The notes beneath the pieces were generated by a model. That model saw nothing but the letters and a program-made list of their open reading frames with translations. It was not told the DNA's origin and made no database searches. Shown here in pieces: positions 17,844 through 44,566 of a stretch of 64,000 bases of DNA. The first letter of the stretch is position 1. Each line of letters starts with the position of its first letter. A program made the translations under genes and the position numbers. The DNA is taken from positions 434,001 through 498,000 of the forward strand of contig CANMUP010000003.1 in NCBI GenBank assembly GCA_947501105.1. Reading direction: 5' to 3'. The stretch is from an uncultured Flaviramulus sp. (lineage in GTDB: Bacteria > Bacteroidota > Bacteroidia > Flavobacteriales > Flavobacteriaceae).

Positions 17844-17864
17844 ACCTAAATAACAATTTATAAA

Positions 17865-20084: not shown

Positions 20085-20092
20085 AAACTTTC

Positions 20093-21733: not shown

Positions 21734-21768
21734 TTTTTTATATCATTACACTAGAAACTTAAAAAAAC

Positions 21769-21808
21769 TATTGTTTTTTGACAAATATTATTGTTTTTTT
21801 ACAAATAT
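21769..21808. repeat. two-copy 20-bp tandem repeat with internal TTGT-N6-ACAA symmetry
   Basis: TATTGTTTTTTGACAAATAT / TATTGTTTTTTTACAAATAT, one mismatch, upstream of fhs. Confidence 0.75.
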
Positions 21809-21863
21809 TATAATTTTGTTAAAAATGTATGTAAAATAATTCATTAAAAAGTATAATATAGAT

Positions 21864-23531: not shown

Positions 23532-23569
23532 TAACTACCACTTTAACAGATACTTACAATAATTTCGAC

Positions 23570-23577
23570 TAAATTTG
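23570..23577 (+). promoter_or_regulatory. possible Bacteroidota -7 promoter element upstream of fdhD
   Basis: TAAATTTG matches TAnnTTTG; no clear -33 element seen. Confidence 0.35.
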
Positions 23578-23619
23578 TGTAATAACTAATAATTACCATA
23601 AGATTAAAGAATAGCAGTT

Positions 23620-24444: not shown

Positions 24445-24450
24445 AAATAT

Positions 24451-26103: not shown

Positions 26104-26109
26104 ATTATT

Positions 26110-28839
26110 ATGAGCAAAACAGCATATATAGACAATCAGGAATTTGAAATAGTTGAAGGTGAGACCATGCTATCTTTCATTAGGCGTTATAAAGAAGAAG
26201 GACTTGTACCAACACTATGCGATGCACCAAACTTAGATCCGTTTGGATCGTGTCGAGTATGTAGTGTAGAAGTTGCTTTAAATGAAAATGGTTCTGTAAA
26301 AACAATGGCATCTTGTCATACGCCAGTAGCTGCTGGTCAACATATTTATACGAGTACAGAATCTGTAAAGGCGCTGCGTAAAAACATTTTAGAACTGGTT
26401 CTTACAGATCATCCTTTAGATTGTTTAACCTGTGAAGTTAACGGTAATTGTGAGTTGCAAACGGTAGCAGCTCAAGTAGGTATTCGCGAAGTGCGTTATC
26501 CAGAAGGAGATAATCATTTATATAGAATGAAAGATCTGAGTCACCCTTATATGACTTCAGATTTGTCAAAATGTATCAACTGTTATCGTTGTGTACGTGC
26601 TTGCGATGAAGTACAAGGAGAGTTTGTACTAAGCATGTCTGGACGTGGTTTTGACTCTAAAATCATAAAAGGATTAGATGATTCGTTTATGGACTCAGAT
26701 TGTGTGAGTTGTGGCGCTTGTTCTCAGGCTTGTCCTACGTCTGCAATCTCTGATGTATTTCAATCTAAAGCCGTTAAACCAACCGAAACTACACGTACCA
26801 TTTGTACCTATTGTGGTGTAGGTTGTAACCTTGATGTGGCTACCAGTAATGGAGAAATAGTCAGTATTCAAGCACCTTATGATGCGGAAGTGAATCAAGG
26901 ACATACCTGTTTAAAAGGACGTTATGCTTTTAAGTTTTATGATCATCCAGAACGTTTAAATGCACCAATGATAAAACGTAATGGAGCATTTGAAAAAGTG
27001 TCTTGGGATGAAGTTTACGATTACATTGCAAATAAATTAACAGGATTTAAAGAAGAGTTTGGTCCAGACTCCATGGCTGGAATTTCTTCATCGCGTTGTA
27101 CAAATGAAGAGAATTATTTAATGCAGAAATTCTTTAGAGCTGTATTGAGTACAAATAATATTGATGGCTGTGCACGTGTGTGTCACTCACCAACAGCATT
27201 AGGTATGCAACGGACTTACGGTACTGGAGCGGCAACAAATTCTATAGACGATTTAAAAGATACCAACTGTATTATGGTTATTGGCGCAAATCCAACTGAT
27301 GCGCACCCAGTAACAGGAGCAAAACTAAAGCAGTTTGCTATGAAATCTGATAACGTATCTATTGTTATCGATCCGCGACGTACAGAATTAGCAAGATATG
27401 CAACACATCATTTGGCTTTAAGACCTGGCACTAATGTAGCTGTACTTAATATGATGATGTATTATATTATTACCGAAAACTTAGTTGATACCTCTTTTAT
27501 AGAAAATAGAACGGAAGGTTTTGAAGACTTTAAAAAAGAATTATTAACTATTGATTTAGATCAAATTGAAGCTGTTTCTGGGGTTAAAAAAGAAGATGTT
27601 CGAGCTGCTGCAATCGCTTATGCGTCGGCACCAAATGCCATGTCTTTTCATGGTTTAGGAGTTACAGAACACTCACAAGGAACCTTTACAGTAATGCAGA
27701 TTGCAGATTTAGCATTGCTTACTGGAAACATAGGTAGACGTGGTGTTGGTGTGAATCCGTTACGCGGACAAAACAATGTGCAAGGATCTGCAGATATGGG
27801 TGTACAACCACATCAAGGTGCAGGATATTTAGATATTACAAAAGATGATGTCAATAAAAAATATAATGAATTTTATGGAGTTGATGTTCCTAAGCATATT
27901 GGGTATAAAATTCCAGAAATGTTTGATGCCGCTTTAGAAGGGAATTTAAAAGCGATTTGGATTATTGGTGAAGATGTTGTTCAAACCGATCCGAATACTC
28001 AAAAAGTTATAAAAGCACTTAATGCAACCGATTTAGTCATTGTTCAGGAATTATTTATGACTGAAACTGCTAAATATGCCGATGTTATTTTGCCAGGTGC
28101 ATCTTTCTTAGAAAAAAGCGGAACGTTTACCAATGGCGAGCGTCGTGTACAGGCTGTAAATCAAGTGGTAGAGCCTGTAGTAGGTTCTAAACCTGATGGA
28201 CAAATTATTGTGGATATAATGAATAAAATGGGCTATGCGCAACCAGACTATACACCAGATGGTATGCTTGAGGAAATTTCGCAAATTGTACCTTTTTTCG
28301 CGGGTATTAAATGGGATAGATTAGGTAAAAATGGATTGCAATGGCCAGTAGCACCTGATGGAACCGATACTCAAATTTTGCATACTGTCAATTTTAAACG
28401 TGGTAAAGGAAAGTTTGAATTTAATCCTTGGGAAGAAACTGTAGAATTGAAAGAACATGCAAAAGACTATCCTTATATTTTAACAACAAACAGAGAGTTA
28501 GAACACTATAACTGTGGAGCGATGACACGTCGAACAGCCAACGAATTGATTCTTCAAGATGATTATTTAATGATAAACCCTGAAGATGCTAAAACCAATC
28601 TTATTAATGATGGTGATTATGTGTGTTTAGAATCTCCAAGAGGAAAAGTAGATGTTAAAGCTAGAATTACAGACGAAGTAAAACAAGGTATTTTAAGTAC
28701 AACCTTCCATTTTCCAGATATTATGATAAATAATATTACAGGAGATGTTCACGATAGTGAAGCCATGTGCCCAGAATATAAAGTAGTAGCGGTTCGTATT
28801 AGAAAAAGTAAAGGGAAGTTTAAAAAACAATTGGTTTAA
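26110..28839 (+). CDS. formate dehydrogenase alpha subunit (NuoG-like N-terminus plus molybdopterin domain)
   Basis: 2Fe-2S and 4Fe-4S Cys motifs, CTYCGVGCNLDV, ARVCHSPTALGMQRTYG (Cys ligand), GNIGRRGVGVNPLRGQNNVQGSADMG. Confidence 0.95.
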   Translation: MSKTAYIDNQEFEIVEGETMLSFIRRYKEEGLVPTLCDAPNLDPFGSCRVCSVEVALNENGSVKTMASCHTPVAAGQHIYTSTESVKALRKNILELVLTDHPLDCLTCEVNGNCELQTVAAQVGIREVRYPEGDNHLYRMKDLSHPYMTSDLSKCINCYRCVRACDEVQGEFVLSMSGRGFDSKIIKGLDDSFMDSDCVSCGACSQACPTSAISDVFQSKAVKPTETTRTICTYCGVGCNLDVATSNGEIVSIQAPYDAEVNQGHTCLKGRYAFKFYDHPERLNAPMIKRNGAFEKVSWDEVYDYIANKLTGFKEEFGPDSMAGISSSRCTNEENYLMQKFFRAVLSTNNIDGCARVCHSPTALGMQRTYGTGAATNSIDDLKDTNCIMVIGANPTDAHPVTGAKLKQFAMKSDNVSIVIDPRRTELARYATHHLALRPGTNVAVLNMMMYYIITENLVDTSFIENRTEGFEDFKKELLTIDLDQIEAVSGVKKEDVRAAAIAYASAPNAMSFHGLGVTEHSQGTFTVMQIADLALLTGNIGRRGVGVNPLRGQNNVQGSADMGVQPHQGAGYLDITKDDVNKKYNEFYGVDVPKHIGYKIPEMFDAALEGNLKAIWIIGEDVVQTDPNTQKVIKALNATDLVIVQELFMTETAKYADVILPGASFLEKSGTFTNGERRVQAVNQVVEPVVGSKPDGQIIVDIMNKMGYAQPDYTPDGMLEEISQIVPFFAGIKWDRLGKNGLQWPVAPDGTDTQILHTVNFKRGKGKFEFNPWEETVELKEHAKDYPYILTTNRELEHYNCGAMTRRTANELILQDDYLMINPEDAKTNLINDGDYVCLESPRGKVDVKARITDEVKQGILSTTFHFPDIMINNITGDVHDSEAMCPEYKVVAVRIRKSKGKFKKQLV

Positions 28840-28861
28840 GAGTTTATAAATTAAAAGCCCA

Positions 28862-29443
28862 ATGTCAACAAAATTTGAAAAAGCGATAGAGCTCATTGAT
28901 AACGAAAATTCAAAAGATATTCGAAAAGAATCTTTTGATAATAAAGAGTACCCTAAAGAGTTATTGTATTCATATAGAATGACAGACAAACTTTTAGAAT
29001 TTCACCCTAATGCATCTGATGAATTAAAGCTTGCTGCTAGAGCACAACATATTAATCGTTGGGAAATAGCAAGAAACACTTATTCTATGGATCGAGTGGG
29101 GTATTTGAAATGGCGCGAAGCGCTTAAGAAGATGCATGCAGATATTACTTCTAATCTTTTAACAGAAGTTGGATACGGTTCAGATTTTATTGATAGAGTT
29201 GTTTTTTTGATTAATAAAAAATTGATAAAAAAGGATGCAGGTTCGCAGATATTGGAAGATGTTGTATGCTTAGTGTTTTTAGAATATTATTTTGATGCCT
29301 TTTCAAGAAAACATGATGATACTAAGCTTATAGATATTATAAAAAAGACATGGAATAAAATGTCTGGAAAAGGACAAGAAGCTGCTTCAAAACTATATTT
29401 TTCAGATAAAAACACGCTATTAATAAAGCATGCTATTTCTTAA
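28862..29443 (+). CDS. DUF4202 family protein
   Basis: 193 aa, ARAQHINRWEIARNTYSMDRVGYLKWREALKKMHA ... QILEDVVCLVFLEYYFD pattern recalled for DUF4202. Confidence 0.75.
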   Translation: MSTKFEKAIELIDNENSKDIRKESFDNKEYPKELLYSYRMTDKLLEFHPNASDELKLAARAQHINRWEIARNTYSMDRVGYLKWREALKKMHADITSNLLTEVGYGSDFIDRVVFLINKKLIKKDAGSQILEDVVCLVFLEYYFDAFSRKHDDTKLIDIIKKTWNKMSGKGQEAASKLYFSDKNTLLIKHAIS

Positions 29444-29453
29444 AATTATGCTA

Positions 29454-30461
29454 TTAACCCCCAATTGTAATCATACTCCTGTTTTTGGTGTGTAATTTGG
29501 GCTCTTCAAGCTTTTCAAGGGTATCCATACCGCCTCTTACCTTAAATTTGGCTTGTATAGCTTTTTGAATAATAGGTTCAATATCTTTTCCTTCTCGGAG
29601 AGTCGTTAATAAATCAGATTCGGTATTAGAAAACAAGCAATTTTTAAGCTTTCCATTTGCTGTTAGACGGATGCGGTTACAGGAATCGCAAAACGGATTG
29701 GTTACAGAGCTTATAATTGCAAAAGAACCTTTGTAGTTTTTAATTTTATAATTTTTGGAAGTATCGTTTGGAGCGTCCTGAATTCGAAGTACTTCATCTT
29801 CATTAAAAGCATTATTTACATATTCCATCACTTCAGCGTAAGACACCATTTTTTGTTTATCCCATTTGTTTCCATCAAAAGGCATAAATTCAATAAAACG
29901 CACAGAAATTGGGAGTGTTTTAGTAAGATTTATAAAATCGATAATTTCATTATCATTAAACTTCTTAATTAAAACAGCATTCAGCTTAACGTTAAAACCT
30001 TCTTTAACTAAAAGTAAAATGTTATTATAAACTGTTTCAAAATTATTTCTACGTGTAATTGTATTAAACTTTTCAGCAATTAAAGAATCTAAGCTCACAT
30101 TTATATTGCGGATGCCACAAGCTTTAAATGTATCAATAAAACGATGCACAGTTACCGCATTTGTAGTTATTGAAAGCTCTACAGGAAGTGTTGACAATTT
30201 TTCTAAAACAATGCTCACATCTTTTCTAACCAAAGGTTCTCCACCTGTAAGTCTAATTTTGGTAACGCCATTATCAACAAAGGTTTTGGCAATGGTATAT
30301 ACCTCATCAAAAGACATGATATGCGATTTTGGTGATAGTGGAATACCTTCTTCGGGCATACAATAAGTGCAGCGTAAATTACATAATTCGGTTAACGAAA
30401 TACGCAAATAGCTGTGTTTCCTGCCATGAGTATCGGTTAATATGTTTTTTTTATTTTCCAT
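29454..30461 (-). CDS. moaA: GTP 3',8-cyclase
   Basis: Radical-SAM CNLRCTYCMPEEGI, second cluster CDSCNRIRLTANGKLKNCLF, C-terminal GG. Confidence 0.97.
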   Translation of the reverse strand: MENKKNILTDTHGRKHSYLRISLTELCNLRCTYCMPEEGIPLSPKSHIMSFDEVYTIAKTFVDNGVTKIRLTGGEPLVRKDVSIVLEKLSTLPVELSITTNAVTVHRFIDTFKACGIRNINVSLDSLIAEKFNTITRRNNFETVYNNILLLVKEGFNVKLNAVLIKKFNDNEIIDFINLTKTLPISVRFIEFMPFDGNKWDKQKMVSYAEVMEYVNNAFNEDEVLRIQDAPNDTSKNYKIKNYKGSFAIISSVTNPFCDSCNRIRLTANGKLKNCLFSNTESDLLTTLREGKDIEPIIQKAIQAKFKVRGGMDTLEKLEEPKLHTKNRSMITIGG

Positions 30462-31372
30462 TAATCGTGTCTTGCGCCTTTAAAAATTCTAAAAATATGA
30501 AGCAGAGAAGGGAATACCGCATCCATTGATTCTTTTGCTCCTTTAGTAGATCCTGGTAATGCTAAAACCAAACTATCTTTATAAGTGCCAGCCACACTTC
30601 TTGACAACATAGAATAAGGAGTCCTTTCTTGTCCGTAGCTACGAATAGCTTCCTCAATACCTGGAATATTTCTGTCTAAAAGTGTTGCTAAAGCTTCTGG
30701 AGTTACATCGCGTTTTGATAAGCCTGTGCCTCCCGTAAAGATAATTAAATCGATACCTTGAGATTGATAGGCTTTTACTTTAGATTGAATAACATCGGCT
30801 TCATCTGGAATAACAGTGTATTCTGAAATAACAACATCACTTTCTTCCAACTTTTTAATAATAGCTTTTCCAGCTTTATCTTCTTTTTGTCCTGCTGAAA
30901 TAGTATCAGAACAAACTACAACTGCAGCGGTTATATCATTTCTAAATTTATCTTTAAAATCTGATTTCCCGCCTTTTTTATTCAATAACTTTATGGTTTG
31001 TATTTCAACACCTTTATCAATAGGCTTAAGCATGTCGTACATGTTTAATGCCACTACACTGGCACCATGCATCGCTTCAACTTCAACACCTGTTTTGTAA
31101 ATGGTTTTTATAGTGCATAAAACGGTGATTTCTAATCCACTAATTTCGTATTCTATTCCTGTAAATTCAATGGGTAGAGGGTGGCAGTCGGGTAATAAAT
31201 CTGGTGTTTTTTTAACACCTAATAATCCTGCTGCTTTACTCATAGCAAAAACATCTCCTTTTGGCACTGTTTTATTTTTAATCGCTTCAATAGTTTCTGG
31301 CTTACTTACTTTCACGACGGCTTGAGCAGTTGCAATCCTTAGGGTGTTTATTTTATGTGTGATGTCTACCAT
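30461..31372 (-). CDS. bifunctional molybdenum cofactor biosynthesis protein MoaC-MoaB
   Basis: N-terminal MoaC (LLPDCHPLPIEFTGIEY, VEVEAMHGASVVALNMYDMLK); C-terminal MoaB/MogA (IIFTGGTGLSKRDVTPEAL, LVLALPGSTKGAKESMD). Confidence 0.95.
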   Translation of the reverse strand: MVDITHKINTLRIATAQAVVKVSKPETIEAIKNKTVPKGDVFAMSKAAGLLGVKKTPDLLPDCHPLPIEFTGIEYEISGLEITVLCTIKTIYKTGVEVEAMHGASVVALNMYDMLKPIDKGVEIQTIKLLNKKGGKSDFKDKFRNDITAAVVVCSDTISAGQKEDKAGKAIIKKLEESDVVISEYTVIPDEADVIQSKVKAYQSQGIDLIIFTGGTGLSKRDVTPEALATLLDRNIPGIEEAIRSYGQERTPYSMLSRSVAGTYKDSLVLALPGSTKGAKESMDAVFPSLLHIFRIFKGARHD

Positions 31373-31375
31373 TAT

Positions 31376-31402
31376 GGTGTTTCGTTTATTCGTTTAACTG
31401 TT
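31376..31402 (+). repeat. left arm of imperfect inverted repeat flanking the four-helix-bundle gene
   Basis: GGTGTTTCGTTTATTCGTTTAACTGTT; partner at 31790-31815. Confidence 0.65.
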
Positions 31403-31759
31403 TAATTGAGATTTTCTTAAAGCATTAAGCTTATTAGAAATTTTTTCAATTTCAGTTCTAATATTTTGATAATCATCTTCGCTAATAAAACTTAATTCTT
31501 TAGCTATTATAATTTGATTAAGAACTTCCATTAATGAACTAAAAGCTAATGTTGTAAAATGAGCTTTATCCTTATTTGTATTTCTTGATGTGCCCTCTGC
31601 TAAGTTTGAAGCTATAGAAACAGAAGCACGTCTTAACTGGTTTGTTAATCCAAATTTTTCTTCGTTAGGAAATCCTTTTGTTATTTGGTATATAAGTTTT
31701 ATTAACTCTTTAGAATCAATCCAAACATTTAATTTTTCAAATGAAAATGTGTATGCCAT
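31394..31759 (-). CDS. four helix bundle protein (23S rRNA intervening-sequence protein / S23 family)
   Basis: FEKLNVWIDSKELIKLIYQITKGFPNEEKFGLTNQLRRASVSIASNLAEGTSRNTNKDKAHFTTLAFSSLMEV. Confidence 0.95.
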   Translation of the reverse strand: MAYTFSFEKLNVWIDSKELIKLIYQITKGFPNEEKFGLTNQLRRASVSIASNLAEGTSRNTNKDKAHFTTLAFSSLMEVLNQIIIAKELSFISEDDYQNIRTEIEKISNKLNALRKSQLNS

Positions 31760-31789
31760 TTTTTACTTTTTCTTATGATTAAACAAATC

Positions 31790-31815
31790 AACAATTAAAC
31801 GAAAAACAAAACACC
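31790..31815 (-). repeat. right arm of imperfect inverted repeat flanking the four-helix-bundle gene
   Basis: Reverse complement GGTGTTTTGTTTTTCGTTTAATTGTT aligns with 31376-31402 (1 gap, 2 mismatches). Confidence 0.65.
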
Positions 31816-32258
31816 TATGTGTTTTGTTTCCATTGATGTGTTTCGTCTTCAAAAATCTCTTTCCCAAATACAGGAACATCTGCTTTTATGGCTTCAACAA
31901 TATATTCCAAAGCTTCAAAAACAACTTTGCGTCTTGGTGATGATACAAATACAAATAAACATATTTCTCCAGTACTAACTTTTCCTAAGCTATGATAAAT
32001 GTGCATGCATGTGAGATCAAACTTTTCAAAAGCAGATTCTCTAATCTCATAAAACTTACTGTTTGCCATATCTTCATAAGCCGTATATTCAATTGCAGAC
32101 ACTGTTTTTCCATCAATTACATCAGCTCTTACTTGCCCAAGAAAAATGTTATGCGCACCAATACTTGTTTTCGTTTGATGTTTATATATTGAGTTGCCTA
32201 TAAATTCTGAATTTATTGCGCCTTCTTTAAATACGCTTTTAGGTTTTTTATTATTCAT
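31815..32258 (-). CDS. moaE: molybdopterin synthase catalytic subunit
   Basis: GAHNIFLGQVRADVIDGKTVSAIEYTAYEDMA; HSLGKVSTGEICLFVFVSSPRRKVVFEALEYIVEAIKADVPVFGKEIFED. Confidence 0.95.
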   Translation of the reverse strand: MNNKKPKSVFKEGAINSEFIGNSIYKHQTKTSIGAHNIFLGQVRADVIDGKTVSAIEYTAYEDMANSKFYEIRESAFEKFDLTCMHIYHSLGKVSTGEICLFVFVSSPRRKVVFEALEYIVEAIKADVPVFGKEIFEDETHQWKQNT

Positions 32259-33333
32259 TTGATGATACTTTTGTATAATTATTTAATACTATGGCTCCTT
32301 CTTTTAAGCTGAAGCAGTTTGCGATGTTGAGCTCATTTAATATTTGAGTAGCTCGCTTACTTCTAACCCCAGATTGGCAAAAAAGCACTTTCTTTTTATC
32401 TGAATTAATTTTGCTTAAACTATGCTCTAGTTGACTAAGAGGAATATGTGAAACTTTTATATTTTCAATTTTTGGTTGTTCGTGTGATTCTCTAATATCT
32501 ATAAATTGAATATTTTCTTCAGAAATTATATCATCAATTGAAACTTCTAAAACTTCAATTTCACAATTAATATTGATTTGCTTATTGTAAAAGTTGTTCT
32601 TTTCTTCTAAAATAGATTGAATAATAGCTTCATTTCTGTTTACTTTTAAAGTTGAAACTTTAGAGGTTAAAGCATTGTAAAACAAAAGGCTCCCCGAAAG
32701 CACATCTCCAATACCTAAAATAATTTTCAAAGCTTCATTAGCCTGCATACTACCAATAATTCCAGGAAGCACACCCAATACACCAATTTCTGAACAATTT
32801 GGTACCGTACCTTTTTGTGGTGGGTTTGGAAATAAACACCTATAACTTGGTCCATTTTTATAGTTAAAAACAGATACCTGTCCTTCAAACTTATAGATAG
32901 CTCCAAACACCAAAGGCTTATTTGTAATAATACAAGTGTCGTTTACGAGATAACGCGTTTCAAAGTTGTCTGACCCGTCAACAATAATATCGTACTGATT
33001 AAATAAATCGATGGCGTTTTGATAATTGAGTTGAAAAGGGTAGGCTGTTATAGAAATAGAATCATTTAAATCCTCTAACCTTTCTTTAGCAGCAATGGCT
33101 TTGTTTTTTGCTAAGCTAGATGTGCCAAATAAAACTTGACGTTGCAAATTAGAAGCTTCTACAACATCAAAGTCTATGATACCGATAGTGCCAATTCCAG
33201 CTCCAGTTAAATATTGCAAAACGGGGCATCCCAAACCTCCAGCACCAATGACTAAAACTTTAGCATTGGAAATTTTGTCTTGGCCAACTTGACCAACTTC
33301 GGATAAAATGATATGTCTGTTGTATCTACTCAT
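32251..33333 (-). CDS. HesA/MoeB/ThiF family adenylyltransferase fused to a rhodanese domain
   Basis: GAGGLGCPVLQYLTGAGIGTIGIIDFDVVEASNLQRQVLF; CLFPNPP; C-terminal FCQSGVRSKRATQIL rhodanese loop. Confidence 0.95.
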   Translation of the reverse strand: MSRYNRHIILSEVGQVGQDKISNAKVLVIGAGGLGCPVLQYLTGAGIGTIGIIDFDVVEASNLQRQVLFGTSSLAKNKAIAAKERLEDLNDSISITAYPFQLNYQNAIDLFNQYDIIVDGSDNFETRYLVNDTCIITNKPLVFGAIYKFEGQVSVFNYKNGPSYRCLFPNPPQKGTVPNCSEIGVLGVLPGIIGSMQANEALKIILGIGDVLSGSLLFYNALTSKVSTLKVNRNEAIIQSILEEKNNFYNKQININCEIEVLEVSIDDIISEENIQFIDIRESHEQPKIENIKVSHIPLSQLEHSLSKINSDKKKVLFCQSGVRSKRATQILNELNIANCFSLKEGAIVLNNYTKVSSNE

Positions 33334-33340
33334 AATTTAA

Positions 33341-33574
33341 TCAACCACCGGCAAAAGGTGGCAATAAAGCTATTTCGCTTCCTGTTATTTCTGTGTTATC
33401 GAAAACCAACTCTTGATTTTGTGCGACTTGAAAATCTTTACTTTTTAAAGCATCATATTTTGAATAAAGTATATCTAAAAGTTCTGAAACTAGCCGACCT
33501 GAAAACTCCATTGACTCTTCATTTTGCTTAGTAATTTCAGCTATTTGACCAAAATATTTAATTGTTATGAACAT
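33341..33574 (-). CDS. moaD: MoaD/ThiS family sulfur carrier protein
   Basis: 77 aa, C-terminal ALLPPFAGG. Confidence 0.92.
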   Translation of the reverse strand: MFITIKYFGQIAEITKQNEESMEFSGRLVSELLDILYSKYDALKSKDFQVAQNQELVFDNTEITGSEIALLPPFAGG

Positions 33575-34142
33575 TTTCTATTTGTTTTAATTCTTCTTTC
33601 GTATTTACATTCATAGTTGTGTTATATGCATTAGCATTTAATAAAATGCTTTTCACTTTACACTGATTAACTGCAAACCGTAAACGCCTTTCTCCACTTT
33701 GTAATACCCTGTAAAATGTGTTTTCGCAATCTTTTTTATATAGAGCTATGAGCGGCATGGCTTTACCGTTACTTTCAATTTGAATAATTTCTGATACATC
33801 ATCAACCCCATTTATTAATTCTTGCAAAATTTCTGTTTTGATAAGTGGGATATCACAACTTAGAACTAAGTTAAATGAAGATAATGATGCTTTTAATCCA
33901 GAATATATTCCAGATACTGGCCCTGCATTTTTAATATCGTCTTCAATTCGTTTGTAACCAAAAGCATTATAATCAGGATTGTCTGAGACAATTATAATTT
34001 CAGACACCAAGGGTTGTAAAGCATCAATACTATATTGAATAAATGGTTTACTGCTTAGCTTTAAAAGGCCCTTGTCTGTTCCCATTCTAGAACTTTTCCC
34101 ACCAGCCAAAATAATTCCCGTTATGTCTTTTTTATTAATCAT
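33558..34142 (-). CDS. mobA: molybdenum cofactor guanylyltransferase
   Basis: GIILAGGKSSRMGTDKGLL; GPVSGIYSGL; LSCDIPLIKTEIL. Confidence 0.93.
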   Translation of the reverse strand: MINKKDITGIILAGGKSSRMGTDKGLLKLSSKPFIQYSIDALQPLVSEIIIVSDNPDYNAFGYKRIEDDIKNAGPVSGIYSGLKASLSSFNLVLSCDIPLIKTEILQELINGVDDVSEIIQIESNGKAMPLIALYKKDCENTFYRVLQSGERRLRFAVNQCKVKSILLNANAYNTTMNVNTKEELKQIENVHNN

Positions 34143-34883
34143 TTAAGTGAAAAATAATTTAACACTAGCAATCATTAACACGAATGCTAGCATGTATTGT
34201 AAATTTCTGTTATTTATCTTTTTACTTCCATAGTAACCTCCTAAAACACCTCCAATAAGAGCAATGACTACCAGAACAAAAGAAGCCTTTTCTATGACAA
34301 CACCACTGCTTAATTGACCAATAAGACCAGACGCTGAATTAACCCAAATAAATAAGGCAGAAACAGCCGCAGCTTCTTTCATTTTTCCCCAATGTAATAA
34401 TAGGATAATTGGGGTTAGTATAATGCCGCCACCAATACCAATTAATCCAGAGAAAAACCCAATAACGCCTCCAACAATTAGTCCTTGCCACAACTTCATC
34501 GATTTAATAGATTGACTTTCTTTACCAAAAACGTTCAGCATTTTTAGAATTGCAAAAATCAATAATATGGCTAATATCTTTTTGTATAAGGTAGCATCAA
34601 CTTCAATTCTACCTCCAAAAAAGGCTAATGGTATGGATGTGATTGCAAATGCTATAAATAATTTTTTATTAAAATGACCTTCTTTATAGTAATAGTAAAA
34701 CGATATTCCTGCTACAAAAATATTTAGAAGTAGGGCAGTGGGTTTCATGCTTTCTGGTGCAAATGAAAATAGAGCCATAAGTGCTAAATAGCCACTGGCG
34801 CCACCATGTCCTACACTTGAATATAGAAACGATACTATAGGTAGAATTAGTAAAAAAAGGTATATGTTTTCGTTTTCAAGCAT
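34143..34883 (-). CDS. TauE/SafE family sulfite exporter-like permease
   Basis: Polytopic; SVGHGGASGYLALMALF and GFFSGLIGIGGGIILTPIIL repeats. Confidence 0.92.
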   Translation of the reverse strand: MLENENIYLFLLILPIVSFLYSSVGHGGASGYLALMALFSFAPESMKPTALLLNIFVAGISFYYYYKEGHFNKKLFIAFAITSIPLAFFGGRIEVDATLYKKILAILLIFAILKMLNVFGKESQSIKSMKLWQGLIVGGVIGFFSGLIGIGGGIILTPIILLLHWGKMKEAAAVSALFIWVNSASGLIGQLSSGVVIEKASFVLVVIALIGGVLGGYYGSKKINNRNLQYMLAFVLMIASVKLFFT

Positions 34884-35222
34884 TTATAGGGTTTTAATTT
34901 TTTCAAGCTGTTTGTCTAAAAACGCCCAGCATTTTTTGTTAATCTCATCAAAAGTTATCACCAAGGATTTACCGTATTCTGTCAATTCGGCACCACCACC
35001 ACCTTTACCACCAATGCTGTTTATGGTTACGGGTTGCTTTGCAGATTTATTCACAGAATCGATAAGATTCCAAGCTTTTTTATAGGAAATATTTAAAGAT
35101 TTTGCAGCTTTTGAAAGCGAGCCAGTTTCGTCAATTGCCTTTAGTAATTGCACACGGCCTTCTCCTAAAAGTACTTTGTTTTTAGATTCAATCCAGATTC
35201 TGCTTTTAATTTTATAACTCAT
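34884..35222 (-). CDS. ModE N-terminal-type winged HTH regulator (no molybdate-binding domain)
   Basis: GRVQLLKAIDETGSLSKAAKSLNISYKKAWNLIDSVN ... GGKGGGGAELTEYGKSLV; 112 aa. Confidence 0.92.
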   Translation of the reverse strand: MSYKIKSRIWIESKNKVLLGEGRVQLLKAIDETGSLSKAAKSLNISYKKAWNLIDSVNKSAKQPVTINSIGGKGGGGAELTEYGKSLVITFDEINKKCWAFLDKQLEKIKTL

Positions 35223-35233
35223 AATTCTGCTTT

Positions 35234-36412
35234 TTAAATGGGTAATAGAATAGTGTTTACTGAATCATTGGGTTCTATGGTATTAATTTCTTCGGATATA
35301 AAAACTAAAGCATTGGATATCGCAAAAGTTTGTAGCATCGATGAATTTTGACCTTCTAAAACTTCAACTTTGCCTTCATTATGAATAGCTTTTAAAAACT
35401 GAGGTCTATCTCCCTTTTTTTTGAAATTTGATATAGAATTTGCATTTACTCGAGGTAATTCCAAAGTCTTTCGATTCATCATGTTTTGTAATGCTATGTA
35501 TACATAAACATAAAAACAAGACAATGCAGCTGCAGGGTTTCCTGGAAGAGCAAATACCAGAGTGTTATCTTTTTTTCCAAAAAATAAAGGCTTTCCTGGT
35601 TTCTGTTTTACTTTGTAAAAAAGCTCATCTACCTTAAGTTCATTTAAAGCTTTTCCAACAAAGTCGTAATCGCCAACAGAAATACCACCAGTAATAAGGA
35701 CTAAATCATTTTCATTAATTACTGAATTAAGTTTCTCTACGGTTTTTATATAATCATCTTCTACCTTATGAACTGTTATATCATAAAATTTTAAACTGTA
35801 GAGAGCACTTAATAGCATTTTAGAATTGCTTTCATAAATTTTGCCATAAGTCAATGCTTCTCCAACCTCAATCAATTCATTTCCAGTAGTAACGATAGCT
35901 ATATTTGGTTTTTTATAAACTGAAACCTTAGTGATTCCCAAAGAAATCAAATAACCTATGGCTGCTGGTGTTAGTTTGCTGCCTTTTTTTAAAGCGATGT
36001 CTCCTTGTTTTACTTGTTCACCGGAAGGGCGAATGTTAAGTCCTAATGAAACTTGATGTTCAATGGTAATAGAGCTTCCATCCGATTGTACTTTTTCCTG
36101 CATCATAATAGCATTTGCAGAATCTGGAACTGGAGCGCCTGTAAAAATCCTAACGGCCTCACCGTGTTTCAAAATAGGTTGATTTGCATCACCAGCTTTA
36201 ATTTCTCCAATAAGCTTATATTTTAAACCTTCATGTAAGCATATTGCATACCCATCCATAGCAGATTGTCTAAACGGGGGCATGTTTATAGGAGAATAAA
36301 CATCTTTATATAACACGTATCCACCAGCTTTTTCAATTGGCTTTATAGTCTCTTTTAATATAGGTTTGCTGTTGCTTTTAACAAACTGAATAGCTTCTTC
36401 TACGGAAATCAT
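35234..36412 (-). CDS. moeA: molybdopterin molybdenumtransferase
   Basis: MPPFRQSAMDGYAI, RIFTGAPVPDSANAIMMQE, ITGGISVGDYDFV, FALPGNPAAALSCFYVYV. Confidence 0.97.
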   Translation of the reverse strand: MISVEEAIQFVKSNSKPILKETIKPIEKAGGYVLYKDVYSPINMPPFRQSAMDGYAICLHEGLKYKLIGEIKAGDANQPILKHGEAVRIFTGAPVPDSANAIMMQEKVQSDGSSITIEHQVSLGLNIRPSGEQVKQGDIALKKGSKLTPAAIGYLISLGITKVSVYKKPNIAIVTTGNELIEVGEALTYGKIYESNSKMLLSALYSLKFYDITVHKVEDDYIKTVEKLNSVINENDLVLITGGISVGDYDFVGKALNELKVDELFYKVKQKPGKPLFFGKKDNTLVFALPGNPAAALSCFYVYVYIALQNMMNRKTLELPRVNANSISNFKKKGDRPQFLKAIHNEGKVEVLEGQNSSMLQTFAISNALVFISEEINTIEPNDSVNTILLPI

Positions 36413-36540: not shown

Positions 36541-36783
36541 ATGCCTATAAAAAGTTACTTAGTTCATCCTCAAGTTGGTAGAAAAGTAGAACTTTTAGAT
36601 GCATTATCAGCATTTGAAGAGTGTGAGGTTATGCCAGCAACAAATGAAGATATTTTAGTATTAGTAACTGATACTATAGATGAAGCTTCTGAAGAACTCC
36701 TTAAAGAGAAAATTGAAAAAATAGAAAGCCTAAAATTGTTAGCAATGGTTTCAGGTTTTAACAGTCCACAAAATCAGCAATAA
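36541..36783 (+). CDS. napD: NapD-like chaperone
   Basis: 80 aa, ferredoxin-like small protein (VHPQVGRKVELLDALSAFEECEVMPATNEDILVLVTDT) immediately upstream of napA. Confidence 0.78.
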   Translation: MPIKSYLVHPQVGRKVELLDALSAFEECEVMPATNEDILVLVTDTIDEASEELLKEKIEKIESLKLLAMVSGFNSPQNQQ

Positions 36784-36784
36784 C

Positions 36785-39112
36785 ATGTATAACTCATTAT
36801 CAAACAGAAGAAGTTTTATAAAAAAAATGGCAAGGCTATCTGCAATGGCTGCAGCAGCATCTATGTTTCCTGGAATAATGTTTGCCAGCGAACAAGAAGA
36901 AGGGATTCCTGAAGGAGCGAATCTAGATTGGAAAAAAGGACCTTGTAGATTTTGCGGTGTAGGTTGTGGTATTTTGGTAGGTACAGAAAACGGAAAAGCT
37001 GTGGCTGTAAAAGGTGACCCAAATTCTTCAGTTAACAAAGGATTGCTTTGTGTTAAAGGTTATCATCAAACTATGTGTATTCAATCTAAAGATAGATTAA
37101 CACATGCTTTAGTTAAGAAAAACGGAACATATGTAAAAACGCCAATTAATGAGGCTTTAGATATTGTTGCTAATAAAATGAAGGATACCATTGCGGCACA
37201 CGGAAAAGATTCGGTTGCGATGTATACCTCTGGACAATCTACTATTCCAGAAGGTTATGTGGCTTCAAAATTAATGAAAGGAGCTATTGGTACTAATAAC
37301 CTTGATTGTAATGCGCGTTTGTGTATGGCTAGTGCTGTAGCTGGGTTTTTAACCTCTTTTGGTGCAGACGAACCTATGGGTTGTTATGAAGATATAGATC
37401 ATGCAGATTATTTTATTACTTGGGGAAACAATATGGCAGAAATGCATCCCGTATTATTTTCTAGAATATTAGAGCAAAAAGCAAGACGAGGCGCAAAAAT
37501 TATTGATTTTGCTACAAGAACAACACGTTCTAGTACAGCTTCGGATAGGTCAATTTTATTTGAACCTCAAACCGATTTAGCTGTTGGAAATGCTATTTGC
37601 TATGAAATAGTTAACAATGGCTGGGTTAATAAATCATTTATTGAAAAACACTGTAATTTTAGTAAAGGACTTACTAAAATGGGTTATGGCTTGGAAGATA
37701 AATATAAATTTAAAGATAAACCCGAAAAAATAGATTTTGATCAATACAGAATCTTTTTAGAAGATTATACGCCTGAAAAAGTTGCTAAATATTCTAAAGT
37801 ATCAGTAAAAGATATTAAGTATTTAGCATCAATCTATGGTAATCCTAATAAAAAAGTAATGTCGCTTTGGTGTATGGGAGTAAATCAGCACACTAGAGGA
37901 ACATGGATGAACAATATTATTTATAACATTCACTTGTTAACAGGTAAAATTTCACAACCTGGTAATAGCCCATTCTCATTAACAGGACAACCTTCTGCTT
38001 GCGGTACTGCTCGCGAAGTAGGAACTTTTACGCACAAACTTCCAAAAGGTGTGGTAATGAATCCGAAGCACAGAGAATTAGCTGCAAAAATTTGGAAAGT
38101 TCCAGTAGAAAGAATTCCATCTAAGCCAACCTATCATACCACCGAAATGTTTAGAGCTGTAGATAGGGGAGATATTAAATTTATTTGGACACAAGCTGTA
38201 AACCCATTAGTATCATTGCCAAAAACAAGTCGTTACCGTCCAGCAATGGAAAAAGAGTCTTGTTTTGTTGTAGTTTCTGATGTGTTTCCAACACCCACGT
38301 CTGATGTTGCCGATGTGATTTTACCAGCAGCATGGCATATTGAAAAATCTGGATTGTATGGAAATTCAGAACGGAGAACACAACATTGGGACAAAATGGT
38401 AGAAGGGCCTGGTGATACCACACCAGATGCGTGGATGTTTATTGAAGTCGCAAAACGTATGGGCTTTGGTGATTTGTTTCCGTATAGTAAAGAAAACCAT
38501 GTAGAAGAAATATACAATGAGTACCGTCAATTCCACGAAGGAAAAAAACACGGAATGGCACCGCTTGAAGTTTTGAAAAAAGAATCTGGAGCTATATGGC
38601 CATATGTAGACGGTAAATCTACGCAATGGCGTTTTAATGCGAAATATGACCCTGCTTGTTCTAACGATGAAGATTTTCATTTTTATGGAAAACCTGATGG
38701 TAAGGCAGTAATTTGGCAACGTCCCTATGAACCGGCACCAGAATCGCCAGATAGCGAATATCCTTTCTGGTTAAATACGGGGCGTGTCATAGAACACTGG
38801 CATACAGGTTCAATGACACGTAGAATACCTGTGCTCCATAAAGCTATGCCACATGCGTACGTAGAATTTCATCCAGAAGATGCTAAAGCATTAAGTATTA
38901 GAAATGGTGAAAACATAAAAGTAACATCGAGAAGAGGTTCTTGTGTATTACCAGCGTCTATAAATGAAAGGGGATTACCAACTAAGGGACAAGTTTTTGT
39001 GCCTTTCTTTGATGAGAACATGCTAATTAATGATGTGACTCTTGATGCTTTTTGCCCAATTTCCAAAGAGCCCGATTTTAAAAAATGTGCTGTTAAAGTT
39101 GAAAAAGCTTAA
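36785..39112 (+). CDS. napA: periplasmic nitrate reductase catalytic subunit
   Basis: Tat motif NRRSFIKK; CRFCGVGCGILVGTENGKAVAVKGDPNSSVNKGLLCVKGYH; NARLCMASAVAGF; HTGSMTRRIPVLHKAMPHAYVEFHPEDA. Confidence 0.95.
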   Translation: MYNSLSNRRSFIKKMARLSAMAAAASMFPGIMFASEQEEGIPEGANLDWKKGPCRFCGVGCGILVGTENGKAVAVKGDPNSSVNKGLLCVKGYHQTMCIQSKDRLTHALVKKNGTYVKTPINEALDIVANKMKDTIAAHGKDSVAMYTSGQSTIPEGYVASKLMKGAIGTNNLDCNARLCMASAVAGFLTSFGADEPMGCYEDIDHADYFITWGNNMAEMHPVLFSRILEQKARRGAKIIDFATRTTRSSTASDRSILFEPQTDLAVGNAICYEIVNNGWVNKSFIEKHCNFSKGLTKMGYGLEDKYKFKDKPEKIDFDQYRIFLEDYTPEKVAKYSKVSVKDIKYLASIYGNPNKKVMSLWCMGVNQHTRGTWMNNIIYNIHLLTGKISQPGNSPFSLTGQPSACGTAREVGTFTHKLPKGVVMNPKHRELAAKIWKVPVERIPSKPTYHTTEMFRAVDRGDIKFIWTQAVNPLVSLPKTSRYRPAMEKESCFVVVSDVFPTPTSDVADVILPAAWHIEKSGLYGNSERRTQHWDKMVEGPGDTTPDAWMFIEVAKRMGFGDLFPYSKENHVEEIYNEYRQFHEGKKHGMAPLEVLKKESGAIWPYVDGKSTQWRFNAKYDPACSNDEDFHFYGKPDGKAVIWQRPYEPAPESPDSEYPFWLNTGRVIEHWHTGSMTRRIPVLHKAMPHAYVEFHPEDAKALSIRNGENIKVTSRRGSCVLPASINERGLPTKGQVFVPFFDENMLINDVTLDAFCPISKEPDFKKCAVKVEKA

Positions 39113-39115
39113 GAC

Positions 39116-39814
39116 ATGAAAAAGAGACTCGGAATCATATCACTTTTTGTATTGCTTTTCATAGCCTTTATAGTCATTTGGAATTTTAGTTATCAGGTGG
39201 GGTTAGAGGAGGGTTATATTCCTATTGAAAACAAAGTGTCTCATACAAATATTCCATCAGAGAGCGGTGTTTTTGAACGCGCTGAATTTGCTTTAGAATA
39301 TGCTAATATGCCAATTGATGAGAATCATCAACGCACTTTAGATACATATTATAATAACAGAGCTTATTATGGCGCTCCACCTAGCATACCACACCCAATT
39401 AAAGATGAAAAAAGTTTAGGAGGTAATGCCTGTTTGCAATGCCATCAAAATGGAGGTTTTGTAAAACAATTTGATGCTTATGCACCAGTTACTCCGCATC
39501 CAGAAATGGTTAATTGTAGACAATGCCATGTCGCTCAAAATAGTAATACGCTTTTTAAGCCTTCAAATTTAGCAAAAGTACATGCGCCTAAAGTTGGTGT
39601 AAATAATGCGTTGATTGGAACACCACCAATGATTCCGCACCAAATACAAATGCGAGAAAATTGCTTGTCATGTCACGCTGGTCCTGCTGCACCTAAAGAA
39701 ATAAGGGTAACACATCCAGAGCGTATTAATTGCCGTCAATGCCATGTGCCAACTGATCGAGTGGTTTCAGAAATTACTCCTTTTACAAGAACTAATAGTA
39801 ATGAGAATGAATAG
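39116..39814 (+). CDS. napB: NapB-like nitrate reductase cytochrome c subunit with four CxxCH motifs
   Basis: N-terminal TM anchor; CLQCH, CRQCH, CLSCH, CRQCH; IPH...CLxCH...HPE..NCRQCHV pattern present twice. Confidence 0.85.
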   Translation: MKKRLGIISLFVLLFIAFIVIWNFSYQVGLEEGYIPIENKVSHTNIPSESGVFERAEFALEYANMPIDENHQRTLDTYYNNRAYYGAPPSIPHPIKDEKSLGGNACLQCHQNGGFVKQFDAYAPVTPHPEMVNCRQCHVAQNSNTLFKPSNLAKVHAPKVGVNNALIGTPPMIPHQIQMRENCLSCHAGPAAPKEIRVTHPERINCRQCHVPTDRVVSEITPFTRTNSNENE

Positions 39815-40442
39815 AAAAAAGGACATATATATATTAGCTTGTTTGTTTGCCGTTACATTTTATTCGTGTAAACATGGTGAAGGTGAATACCATAGTCTTC
39901 ATGATAAGATTGAAGCTGAAAGTAAAACTTATCATGATACAACGATGACTTCAGAAGCTTTTTTTAATGATATTAAAACTATCGAAATTACAGAGGGCGT
40001 ACATACTTTTTTAATACCTGAACGTAAAGGACAAATTAAATCTTACGCATGTATTGAATGTCATACCGAGTCTCTTGATAAATTAAAAAGCAAGGATATG
40101 AAAAAAGCGCATTGGGATATTAATTTGGTACATGCTGATAAGAATACCATGAATTGTGCTACTTGCCACAATGGTAATGATATGAATAATCTTAATACGC
40201 TTACAGGTAATACAGTAGATTTTAATTCGAGTTATAAATTATGTGCACAGTGTCATTCTTCGCAATTTGAAGATTGGAAAGGCGGTGCTCATGGAAAACG
40301 TATTGGAGGTTGGGTTCCACCAAGAGCGTCATTTACATGTGTTAATTGTCATAATCCACATAGTCCGAGTTTTGAGACTAGATGGCCATCACGATTTAAT
40401 ACAGAACAGATAGAAGAATCACACGAAGGATTAGCCCAATAA
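39801..40442 (+). CDS. tetraheme cytochrome c lipoprotein
   Basis: Lipobox AVTFYSC; four CxxCH (CIECH, CATCH, CAQCH, CVNCH); track start 39744 likely too early. Confidence 0.85.
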   Translation: MRMNRKKDIYILACLFAVTFYSCKHGEGEYHSLHDKIEAESKTYHDTTMTSEAFFNDIKTIEITEGVHTFLIPERKGQIKSYACIECHTESLDKLKSKDMKKAHWDINLVHADKNTMNCATCHNGNDMNNLNTLTGNTVDFNSSYKLCAQCHSSQFEDWKGGAHGKRIGGWVPPRASFTCVNCHNPHSPSFETRWPSRFNTEQIEESHEGLAQ

Positions 40443-40452
40443 AAATTAAGGT

Positions 40453-41574
40453 ATGAGCGATAATAAAAAATGGTATTCATTGGATTTGAATTTCAAAAAG
40501 AAAAAAGAAACGTCGGGATCTTGTGGATGTGGAAAGACATCTGGAGGTTGCGGAAGCCATAATAATGAGATGACTGATGATGCTTTTCTTGAAGCAGCAG
40601 TTAATGCCTCTATTGGAGATGAAGTGAGAAAAGATGGTTTTGATCAAGTTTTTGATGTTAAAATGGATAGACGTAGTGCTTTTAAAAAGTTAACCGCTAG
40701 TTTACTTATTGGAGCAGGAGCAGTAAGTACATCTTGTAGTGTTGTAACTGGTGATGATAGTAAAGAAAAAGCACAAATAGATTGGGAAGAGCAGTTTAAA
40801 GGCAACTATAAACTGATGAGTGATAAAGAAAAGAAAGGCACAGTTGAACGATTGATGCGATCTTATGAATTGAGAACTGGAAAAAATATTAGTATGACCT
40901 CTGAAAATGCAAAAGAGGATGTGCTTTTTGGTTATGCCTTTAATATTTCTAAATGTCAAGGGTATATGGATTGTGTTAATGCATGTATTGAAGAGAATAA
41001 CCAAGATAGAAACTCTCAAATGCAGTATATCCGTATTCACGAAATGAAAGATGGAAACGGTTTTAAGTTTGATGAAGCAGATGATAATTACTATCATGAA
41101 GTACCAGCAGAAGGTCATTTTTATATGGGTACACAGTGTTTTCATTGTGATAACCCTCCTTGTGTTGAAGTTTGCCCTGTGCAAGCCACTTGGAGAGAAG
41201 ATGATGGTCTTGTAGTTATAGATTATGATTGGTGTGTGGGTTGCCGTTATTGTATGGCCGCTTGCCCATATGATGGCAGACGATTTAACTGGAGTAAACC
41301 AGAAGTTCCTGAAGCTGAAATAAATAAAAATCAGCATTATTTAGGGAATAGAATGCGCAAAAAAGGCGTGATGGAAAAATGTACGTTTTGTGTACAGCGT
41401 TCTAGAAAAGGGCAAAACCCTGCATGTGTTGAAGCGTGTCCTACTGGTGCCAGAATATTTGGAAACCTGTTAGACCCTAATAGTACCATTCGTTGGGTAT
41501 TGGAAAACAAAAAAGTTTTTAGGCTTAAAGAAGATTTAGGAACAGAGCCTAAGTTCTGGTATTTTATGGATTAG
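40453..41574 (+). CDS. 4Fe-4S ferredoxin-type electron transfer subunit (NrfC/DmsB/TtrB-like)
   Basis: CFHCDNPPCVEVCP, CVGCRYCMAACPYDGR, CTFCVQRSRKGQNPACVEACPTGAR; RRSAFKKL Tat-like stretch and SCS lipobox-like Cys. Confidence 0.9.
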   Translation: MSDNKKWYSLDLNFKKKKETSGSCGCGKTSGGCGSHNNEMTDDAFLEAAVNASIGDEVRKDGFDQVFDVKMDRRSAFKKLTASLLIGAGAVSTSCSVVTGDDSKEKAQIDWEEQFKGNYKLMSDKEKKGTVERLMRSYELRTGKNISMTSENAKEDVLFGYAFNISKCQGYMDCVNACIEENNQDRNSQMQYIRIHEMKDGNGFKFDEADDNYYHEVPAEGHFYMGTQCFHCDNPPCVEVCPVQATWREDDGLVVIDYDWCVGCRYCMAACPYDGRRFNWSKPEVPEAEINKNQHYLGNRMRKKGVMEKCTFCVQRSRKGQNPACVEACPTGARIFGNLLDPNSTIRWVLENKKVFRLKEDLGTEPKFWYFMD

Positions 41575-41834: not shown

Positions 41835-43058
41835 ATGCGACGATTAAAAGTTTTTAGAAGTTTAGTTATAGATAGCATTGACGCTACTACAAAAGGATCT
41901 CGTAAATATAATATTTGGATGGGGTTCTTAACGTTTATTATGCTTGTTGGTATGTATTGTTATTCTATACAATTAGACCAAGGTTTGAGTGTTACAGGAA
42001 TGAGTGATAGGGTGAGTTGGGGTTTGTATATTTCTAACTTCACCTTTTTGGTAGGTGTTGCTGCTGCTGCTGTAATGCTGGTTATGCCAACGTATGTACT
42101 TAAAGATATCGATTTTAAACAAGCGGTGCTTATTGGAGAAGGGTTGGCTGTGGCTGCGCTTATTATGTGCTTAGCTTTTGTGGTTGCAGATATGGGTGGA
42201 CCTTCGGTACTTTGGCATATGATACCTGGTATTGGCGTATTTAATTTTCCGAACTCTATGTTGACTTGGGATGTCATTGTTTTAAACGGCTATTTGTTTT
42301 TAAACATAAGTATCCCTTTTTATATATTGTTTAGACGTTACCAGGGGAAAGTACCAAATCCAAAAATTTATATTCCTGGAGCTGTTTTATCTGTATTATG
42401 GGCGGTAGCCATTCACTTAGTTACAGCGTTTTTATACCAAGGTTTACAGGCGCGTCCTTTTTGGAACAACGCCTTGTTGGGGCCTCGTTTTTTAGCATCG
42501 GCTTTTGCTGCGGGTCCTGCATTAATTATTTTGGTTTTAGCAATTATTCGATCTTTTACAGATTTTAAGATTAAAAATAAAACCATTAATAAAATTGCTC
42601 TAATAGTTACTGTTGCGGCTCAAATTAATATTATCATGCTAATATCAGAATTATTTAAAGAGTTTTACGCACCAACACACCATAGCGAAAGTGCTTACTA
42701 TTTGTTTTTTGGACTTGATGGAAAAACGGCACTTTTACCATGGATTTGGACTGCTATTTCAATGAATGTTATTGCAACAATAATTTTAACTTTTAAGAAA
42801 TTAAGAGAAAACCTTAGTGTTTTATATTTCTGTTGTTTTTTACTTTTTGTGGCTATTTGGATTGAAAAAGGTTTCGGACTTATTGTCCCAGGGTTTATAC
42901 CTGGACCTTATGGTAAAATAGTAGAATATTTGCCAACTAAAATAGAAGTAGGTGTTACCATAGGTATTTGGGCAATGGGTGCTTTTATATTTACAATATT
43001 AGCAAAAACTGCTATTGGTATCGAATTAGGTAAAATTAGATATAAGAAGAAGTCTTAA
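41835..43058 (+). CDS. NrfD/PsrC-family polytopic membrane subunit
   Basis: 407 aa polytopic protein following the NrfC-like gene; SWGLYISNFTFLVGVAAAAVM, KGFGLIVPGFIPGPYGKIVEYLPTKIEVGVTIGIWAMGAF. Confidence 0.92.
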   Translation: MRRLKVFRSLVIDSIDATTKGSRKYNIWMGFLTFIMLVGMYCYSIQLDQGLSVTGMSDRVSWGLYISNFTFLVGVAAAAVMLVMPTYVLKDIDFKQAVLIGEGLAVAALIMCLAFVVADMGGPSVLWHMIPGIGVFNFPNSMLTWDVIVLNGYLFLNISIPFYILFRRYQGKVPNPKIYIPGAVLSVLWAVAIHLVTAFLYQGLQARPFWNNALLGPRFLASAFAAGPALIILVLAIIRSFTDFKIKNKTINKIALIVTVAAQINIIMLISELFKEFYAPTHHSESAYYLFFGLDGKTALLPWIWTAISMNVIATIILTFKKLRENLSVLYFCCFLLFVAIWIEKGFGLIVPGFIPGPYGKIVEYLPTKIEVGVTIGIWAMGAFIFTILAKTAIGIELGKIRYKKKS

Positions 43059-43303: not shown

Positions 43304-44566
43304 ATGAAAAAGCAATACGTAATAATTTGCATTTTGATGGCGACAATTCAATTTGCACAAGCACAATTTACATTAGATGGTGAGTTTAGGCCACGTACTG
43401 AATACAGACATGGTTATGGGAGTATTATTCCAGATGCCACAGATGCTGGATTTGGTATTTCTACCAGGATTAGATTAAATGCAGGTTATCAAGTAGATGC
43501 TTATAAATTTTATGTGAGTTTTCAAGATGTGATGGTTTGGGGAGAAAACAGACAAATTTTGCCTAACGATCAAAACAATTCGTTTGCTGTATTTCAGGCT
43601 TGGGCAGAAATTAATTTAGGTGAAGGGTTTTCAACAAAATTAGGACGTCAAGTGCTATCTTATGATGACCAAAGAATTATGGGCGGTTTAGATTGGGCAC
43701 AGCAAGGGCGTAACCATGATGCCGCTTTAATTAAATATAAAAAAGGAAAATTTATAGCTGATTTTGGATTGGCTTTTAATCAAGACTATTCAAATCCTGC
43801 TGGTTTTGTTTCAACGGGAACTGGCTACAATACTTCTGGTTTCTTTTCGTATAAAACCATGCAATATTTATACTTAAAGCAAGCTTGGAATAACTTTACA
43901 GGAAGCTTACTATTGCTGAATAATGGGTTTCAGAAATTTGATACCAATAATAATCCAGATGGAGTAAACGGCATTCAAACTCTAGGAACACATTTAAATT
44001 ATAAAAAAAATAAATTAGGAATTGCAACCAATGCTTTTTTACAGTTAGGCGATAATATAGATGGCGCTTATCTTTTAGGATTAGACTTAACTTATAAAGC
44101 TTCTGATAAAGTAAGTCTTGGTGCTGGTTTAGAAATTATAAGTGGAAATGATGCTACGACACCAGATACTGAAGCGTTTTTCCCATTATATGGTACAAAT
44201 CATAAATTCAACGGGTTTATGGATTATTTCTTCGTAGGTAATCATGCAAATTCTATTGGGTTATTTGATGTGCATGTGAGTGCAAACTTTAAATTAAGTG
44301 ACACCTCTAGTTTATTGGTTAAAGTTTTAAACTTTAGTGGCGAACAAGATTTACCGAGTGGTGAAAAATCTTTAGGAACAGAGTTGGATTTAGTGTTTTC
44401 TAAAGCTTTTAAAGGCTATGCTTTAAAACTCGGGTATTCTCACATGTTTGCTAGTGATGGTATGTACGAATTAAAAGGTGTAACAGAAAATGCAGCATCC
44501 GATATGCAAAACTGGGGTTGGGCTATGTTAGTTCTTAAACCTAAGTTTTTAAATGGCAATGATTAA
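43304..44566 (+). CDS. alginate-export-family-like outer membrane porin
   Basis: Signal peptide; beta-barrel pattern; FTLDGEFRPRTEYRHGYG, LGRQVLSYDDQRIMGGLDWAQQGRNHDA. Confidence 0.8.
   Translation: MKKQYVIICILMATIQFAQAQFTLDGEFRPRTEYRHGYGSIIPDATDAGFGISTRIRLNAGYQVDAYKFYVSFQDVMVWGENRQILPNDQNNSFAVFQAWAEINLGEGFSTKLGRQVLSYDDQRIMGGLDWAQQGRNHDAALIKYKKGKFIADFGLAFNQDYSNPAGFVSTGTGYNTSGFFSYKTMQYLYLKQAWNNFTGSLLLLNNGFQKFDTNNNPDGVNGIQTLGTHLNYKKNKLGIATNAFLQLGDNIDGAYLLGLDLTYKASDKVSLGAGLEIISGNDATTPDTEAFFPLYGTNHKFNGFMDYFFVGNHANSIGLFDVHVSANFKLSDTSSLLVKVLNFSGEQDLPSGEKSLGTELDLVFSKAFKGYALKLGYSHMFASDGMYELKGVTENAASDMQNWGWAMLVLKPKFLNGND

Follow-up and report, generated by a model that had tools for sequence, protein, structure and literature searches.

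Reviews describe Nap as NapA combined with the diheme NapB, or with NapM, and fed by NapC or NapGH, and a 2026 review distinguishes four operon types: napEDABC, napDAGHB, napCMADGH and napAGHBFLD (PMC13223375). NapM, a tetraheme protein of napCMADGH clusters (e.g. in Desulfovibrio and Caldithrix), is taken to donate electrons directly to NapA in systems that lack NapB, and it occurs with NapC or NapGH (PMC5317091). The operon that we found in the window, by which we mean the whole stretch of 64,000 nucleotides analysed here, has the order napD-napA-napB4-lipoprotein-DsrO-DsrP, which is absent from the four types of that review (PMC13223375). Its third gene, here called napB4, begins 3 bp past the napA stop codon, and napA is also its neighbour in related loci. 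The original prediction had placed a NapB-like subunit built by internal duplication at 39374-39748, a span that covers residues 87-211 of one ORF (39116-39814). The features of the operon are as follows:

36541-36783, + strand: napD-like chaperone, 80 aa (PF03927 NapD 23.4 bits, below the cut-off of 28; position kept in related loci; Flammeovirga counterpart annotated as chaperone NapD)
36785-39112, + strand: napA, 775 aa, small size class (NF010055 NapA 946.4 bits, cut-off 904; PDB matches 2nya, 3ml1, 1ogy)
39116-39814, + strand: napB4, putative NapB-derived tetraheme cytochrome, 232 aa (PF03892 NapB 45.7 bits, cut-off 25.1)
39128-39184, + strand: N-terminal hydrophobic helix of napB4 (residues 5-23), predicted membrane anchor (hydropathy, model, conservation)
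39374-39529, + strand: NapB-like unit 1 of napB4 (residues 87-138; hhalign to NapB, probability 97.8 over 73 columns)
39623-39748, + strand: NapB-like unit 2 of napB4 (residues 170-211; hhalign to NapB, probability 98.1 over 49 columns; to unit 1, probability 99)
39807-40442, + strand: tetraheme lipoprotein cytochrome, NrfB-like in role, overlapping the napB4 end (four CxxCH in 111/111 loci)
40453-41574, + strand: DsrO/NrfC-like four-cluster ferredoxin (NF045797 DsrO 196.6 bits, cut-off 200; NrfC 124.7 bits)
41835-43058, + strand: DsrP/NrfD-like integral membrane protein, putative quinol-oxidizing subunit (PF03916 NrfD 114.8 bits; NF045798 DsrP 424.1 bits, cut-off 350)

PF03892 was the highest-scoring Pfam family for NapB4 of the window and matched all 51 of its relatives (E up to 0.001). 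When the protein was scored in parts, the N-terminal part reached 33.8 bits and the C-terminal part 24.3 bits, just below the cut-off. Like classical NapB (PF03892; PDB 1ogy_B, 3ml1_B), NapB4 has the PPxIPH...CxxCH...H...CxxCHV layout, is encoded directly 3' of napA and passes the Pfam cut-off, but it differs in having two units with four predicted hemes, a putative N-terminal anchor and a His-CxxCH spacing of 5 rather than 18 residues. The NCBIfam NapB equivalog NF008609 gave 15.6 bits, far below its cut-off of 230. Homology places NapB4 in the NapB family, but as it departs from classical NapB in heme number and His-Cys spacing and stays below the equivalog cut-off, the most fitting name for it is a tetraheme variant derived from NapB.

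Four CxxCH motifs were present in 110 of 111 related loci. In the remaining one (L100, uncultured Flavobacteriaceae), the fourth site reads CRQCN instead of CRQCH at the equivalent of residue 210, leaving three CxxCH, which may mean that this heme is five-coordinate or lost, or that the sequence contains an error. Exactly eight His were invariant in the 51-row alignment, namely those of the four CxxCH and His 93, 128, 175 and 200, each of which precedes one CxxCH. Because every CxxCH has one such additional His ahead of it, NapB4 is predicted to carry four bis-His c-type hemes in two pairs, in agreement with the tetraheme state proposed from the start.

The membrane anchor that had been proposed along with the four hemes is also retained as a prediction. 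The Kyte-Doolittle mean over 19 residues reached 2.67 at the N-terminus, with the next peak at about 0.55, the N-terminal helix was modelled by AlphaFold2 with pLDDT above 90, and W22, S25, Y26 and Y34, right behind the hydrophobic helix, are invariant. The export signal of classical NapB is cleaved off, and the helix of NapB4 could alternatively be a signal peptide whose removal leaves a soluble periplasmic tetraheme shuttle; the AlphaFold helix is compatible with either reading. Judged by eye and by conservation, however, a small-x-small site is absent behind the helix, and the invariant residues follow it immediately. As these conserved residues sit straight after the helix, an anchor is the more likely interpretation, and we regard a cleaved signal as unlikely.

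For comparison of the two units, profiles were built from the 51 relatives, and a classical NapB profile was built from eight proteobacterial and campylobacterial proteins, taken from plasmids and E. coli. Unit 1 contains PPSIPH93, CLQCH (106-110), H128 and CRQCH (134-138), within the string PPSIPHPI...CLQCH...TPHPEMVNCRQCHV, and unit 2 contains PPMIPH175, CLSCH (183-187), H200 and CRQCH (206-210), within PPMIPHQI...CLSCH...THPERINCRQCHV. Aligned with hhalign, unit 1 and unit 2 scored 88.7 (probability 99.0), compared with a top score of 48.8 when the CxxCH cores were held fixed and the remaining columns were shuffled 100 times. Against NapB the scores were 69.6 for unit 1 and 70.8 for unit 2 (permuted maxima 34.5 and 35.3). 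Chance clustering of CxxCH is ruled out by scores so far above the column-permuted controls. After masking of C, C and H in the cores, the two units still matched each other with a probability of 96.6 and NapB with 66-69, and the masked controls, E. coli NapC and the family of the adjacent tetraheme lipoprotein, gave ≤0.4%. The predicted internal duplication is thus borne out by both halves, each of which matches the other as well as NapB, and the motifs quoted for it were all found within 39374-39748.

The further claim that the classical NapB layout is repeated holds for the motifs, which occur twice, but not for the spacings. From the distal His to the second CxxCH there are 5 residues in both units versus 18-20 in the eight classical NapBs, and IPH is separated from the first CxxCH by 11-13 residues in unit 1, by 7 in unit 2 and by 13-14 in NapB. 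Beyond CxxCH, the units have in common PPxIPH and HPExxNCRQCHV, together with a short His-Cys spacing that has no counterpart in NapB. In a tree of units, built on 60 columns only and without a reliable root, one branch (99/100) separated off all unit-1 sequences, classical NapB stood apart (95/100), and units 1 and 2 grouped together away from NapB. By these comparisons both halves are NapB-like and nearer to each other than to NapB. Because the 5-residue spacing is common to both units, the data suggest a single duplication after the spacing had shortened and before Flammeovirga and the Flavobacteriaceae split, or before a transfer between them. The explanation that we favour, and hold to be probable, is that tandem duplication of a NapB two-heme unit inside a single polypeptide gave rise to a membrane-anchored four-heme electron-transfer subunit.

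The opposite direction, in which the tetraheme form is ancestral and diheme NapB arose by loss of one unit, draws on the NapA partner, which belongs to the small size class regarded as ancestral in a phylogenetic study (PMC12769810), and on the lack of a reliable root in the tree of units. However, the entire NapB match, C-terminal tail included, falls in unit 1, unit 2 is the shorter of the two, the units cluster together apart from NapB, and our search of genomes and plasmids turned up the four-heme form in Bacteroidota only. We therefore consider this direction improbable. Less probable still is a fusion of diheme NapB with another two-heme module of c7/c3 type, in which the likeness of the halves would be convergence around heme motifs. 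Unit 2 alone does score slightly higher with Cytochrome_C7 (26.2 bits) than with NapB (24.3 bits, cut-off 25.1), but the likeness between the units takes in PPxIPH, HPExxNCRQCHV and a short His-Cys spacing unlike that of NapB, persists when the cores are masked (probability 96.6) and far exceeds the permuted controls; an unrelated c7 module was rejected.

An origin as a NapM- or NapC/NrfH-type tetraheme cytochrome with no kinship to NapB is very hard to sustain: four hemes, a membrane helix and a neighbouring napA are found with NapC and NapM too, and there are weak matches to PF03264 and class III cytochrome models, but PF03892 is the best Pfam match and is found in all members tested, PF03264 reaches 13.3 bits (cut-off 24.1), and the NapC-type partner of a Persicobacter NapA lacks PPxIPH units and has no meaningful similarity to NapB4. 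We rejected NapC/NrfH, which resembles NapB4 in its N-terminal membrane helix and four hemes, on this family score, and NapM, which also has four hemes but is not described as made of NapB units, by comparison of descriptions only.

The six-gene operon is conserved in related loci in the order napD, napA, napB4, tetraheme lipoprotein, DsrO/NrfC-like and DsrP/NrfD-like. Profile searches of the whole genome gave no match to NapC/NrfH (PF03264) or to NrfA (PF02335), and dsrM, dsrK and dsrJ are missing from the Nap operon. The lipoprotein has an invariant lipobox Cys (39867-39869) and five invariant non-motif His. Judged by gene content, NapC/NapGH is replaced by the tetraheme lipoprotein and a DsrOP/NrfCD-like module, and quinol is probably oxidized by the DsrP/NrfD-like protein rather than by a NapC/NrfH type; the original prediction had passed over both this loss and the substitute donor module. 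Genes 4-6 resemble NrfBCD and DsrJOP in combining a multiheme cytochrome, a four-cluster ferredoxin and an NrfD-type protein in the same order. They differ in that the module would serve NapA instead of NrfA or DsrMK, and in their cytochrome, a tetraheme lipoprotein where NrfB is pentaheme and DsrJ triheme. The ferredoxin also carries an N-terminal extension of ~70 aa (40453-40690) with a conserved Cys-rich stretch, SCGCGK..GGCGS, followed by an RR-containing Tat-like lipoprotein signal. This extension was present in all nine Flavobacteriaceae proteins read, and a similar one occurs in Flammeovirga.

In the route that we propose, menaquinol would be oxidized by the DsrP/NrfD-like membrane protein, and electrons would pass through the 4x[4Fe-4S] ferredoxin to the tetraheme lipoprotein, then to NapB4 and finally to NapA, in that presumed order. 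Unit 2 would take electrons from the lipoprotein and so lengthen the wire toward the membrane, and unit 1, whose match to NapB spans the entire heme domain and the C-terminal tail, would dock on NapA near the 4Fe-4S cluster and Tyr93. The different heme wire to NapA that had been predicted is plausible. AlphaFold2 gave a mean pLDDT of 46 and pTM of 0.27 for NapB4 alone (51 sequences). As napA and napB4 share a frame, we also modelled a read-through NapA-NapB4 fusion (69 rows), with the TAA read as Q purely as a tether, for which mean pLDDT was about 53.5 and pTM 0.43. Both models were too poor to inform on docking or heme stacking and were set aside. More tentatively, and with doubt prevailing, a wire of eight hemes, four of them in a duplicated NapB, could couple NapA to a menaquinol oxidase of the NrfD type that possibly translocates protons; Nap would then be a stable membrane-bound, possibly energy-conserving complex and a further Nap architecture of Bacteroidota. 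The operon poses the question of whether this Nap conserves energy when quinol is oxidized, and NapB4 offers a natural test of heme-wire lengthening via duplication.

The relay Tyr (Tyr58 of Cereibacter) is conserved in all heterodimeric Nap according to the 2026 review (PMC13223375). Its equivalent in NapA of the window is Tyr93, which, together with the Mo ligand Cys180, was present in 74/74 loci; monomeric Desulfovibrio NapA has Ser at this position. Two residues critical for the Cereibacter dimer, E47 and S772, correspond here to Ser82 and Asn745, and about 43 residues found in E. coli NapA are missing. Because of these differences the NapA-NapB4 interface is likely modified, and binding may be weak or different.

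NapA of the window and 74 related loci formed two deep clades, with identities of about 89% within and 74% between them, and the NapA type switched at least nine times along the tree of the four downstream subunits. In the closest pair, from Aquimarina (L042/L041), residues 1-80 of NapA were 98-100% identical and the end 93%, but the core only about 75%; from this pattern, the catalytic core seems to have been swapped inside the operon by recombination. NapA of the window is of the derived type, with changes (W152S and W518H among them) at residues that Flammeovirga and E. coli have in common with the other type.

NapA was found in 38 of 201 sampled Flavobacteriaceae genomes, and NapB4, with convincing scores, in exactly the same 38. 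A phylum-wide sample, for which PF03892 by itself was too insensitive, gave NapA with NapB4 in 4/396 genomes, all four Flavobacteriaceae, the matches being few because Nap is rare in the phylum. The whole six-gene operon also lies on a plasmid of Flammeovirga kamogawensis (Cytophagales), where NapB4 is 45% identical, has all eight His and scores 39.7 bits with PF03892. Annotation overlooks it: the gene is labelled 'cytochrome c3 family protein', and the label 'DsrP' is given to the NrfD-like protein encoded nearby. A Persicobacter plasmid (L170:5947-8926) encodes a 769-aa NapA, 39% identical, followed by a NapC-type tetraheme cytochrome, and its nap locus has no NapB; the NapB4 system is therefore not universal in Bacteroidota. 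Tetraheme NapB is the normal form in marine Flavobacteriaceae with Nap, a real, ancient and clade-wide variant. As to whether it was already known as the common form of the clade, it is indeed invariant there (38/38 Nap genomes), but the open-access literature, including the Nap papers of 2025-2026, in which NapB is diheme only, yielded no account of a four-heme NapB or its operon, and the text of a 2025 phylogeny paper mentions neither Bacteroidota nor Flavobacteria (PMC12769810). A duplicated tetraheme NapB in fixed association with its NrfCD/DsrOP-like donor, in marine Bacteroidota that denitrify, would be an added Nap operon type.

The nitrite produced would pass to denitrification (NirK, NorC) in the genome. 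A 488-aa NirK with a C-terminal CxxCH cytochrome domain is encoded on contig 1 (G000, L169:3585-5051) near a NorC-like gene, and on the strength of this Cu nitrite reductase and its neighbour nitrite is probably reduced to NO by NirK. A complete denitrification pathway (napA, nirK, norB, nosZ) has been reported for Aquimarina longa, with NapB unmentioned (PMC4603819), and this species is a member of our locus set (L054). Given the lack of an NrfA match, the presence of NirK and a NorC-like gene and the pathway of A. longa, Nap here most likely begins denitrification.

Two neighbours of the operon were also recorded. Downstream (43304-44566) lies an alginate-export-like outer-membrane beta-barrel (PF13372). 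Many relatives have a related barrel close to nap, in most cases upstream and about 45% identical, with one downstream at 74%, and because of this proximity the protein may be a nitrate/nitrite porin. On the other side, a molybdenum-enzyme island adjoins nap at 17382-36412, with its genes named by reading ORFs. It contains two-subunit xanthine/aldehyde dehydrogenase-like genes with an XdhC-like gene, an FdhD-like protein, an NADH-linked formate dehydrogenase-like pair (24451-28839), Moa/Mob/Moe cofactor genes, a ModE-like regulator and a TauE/SafE-type transporter.
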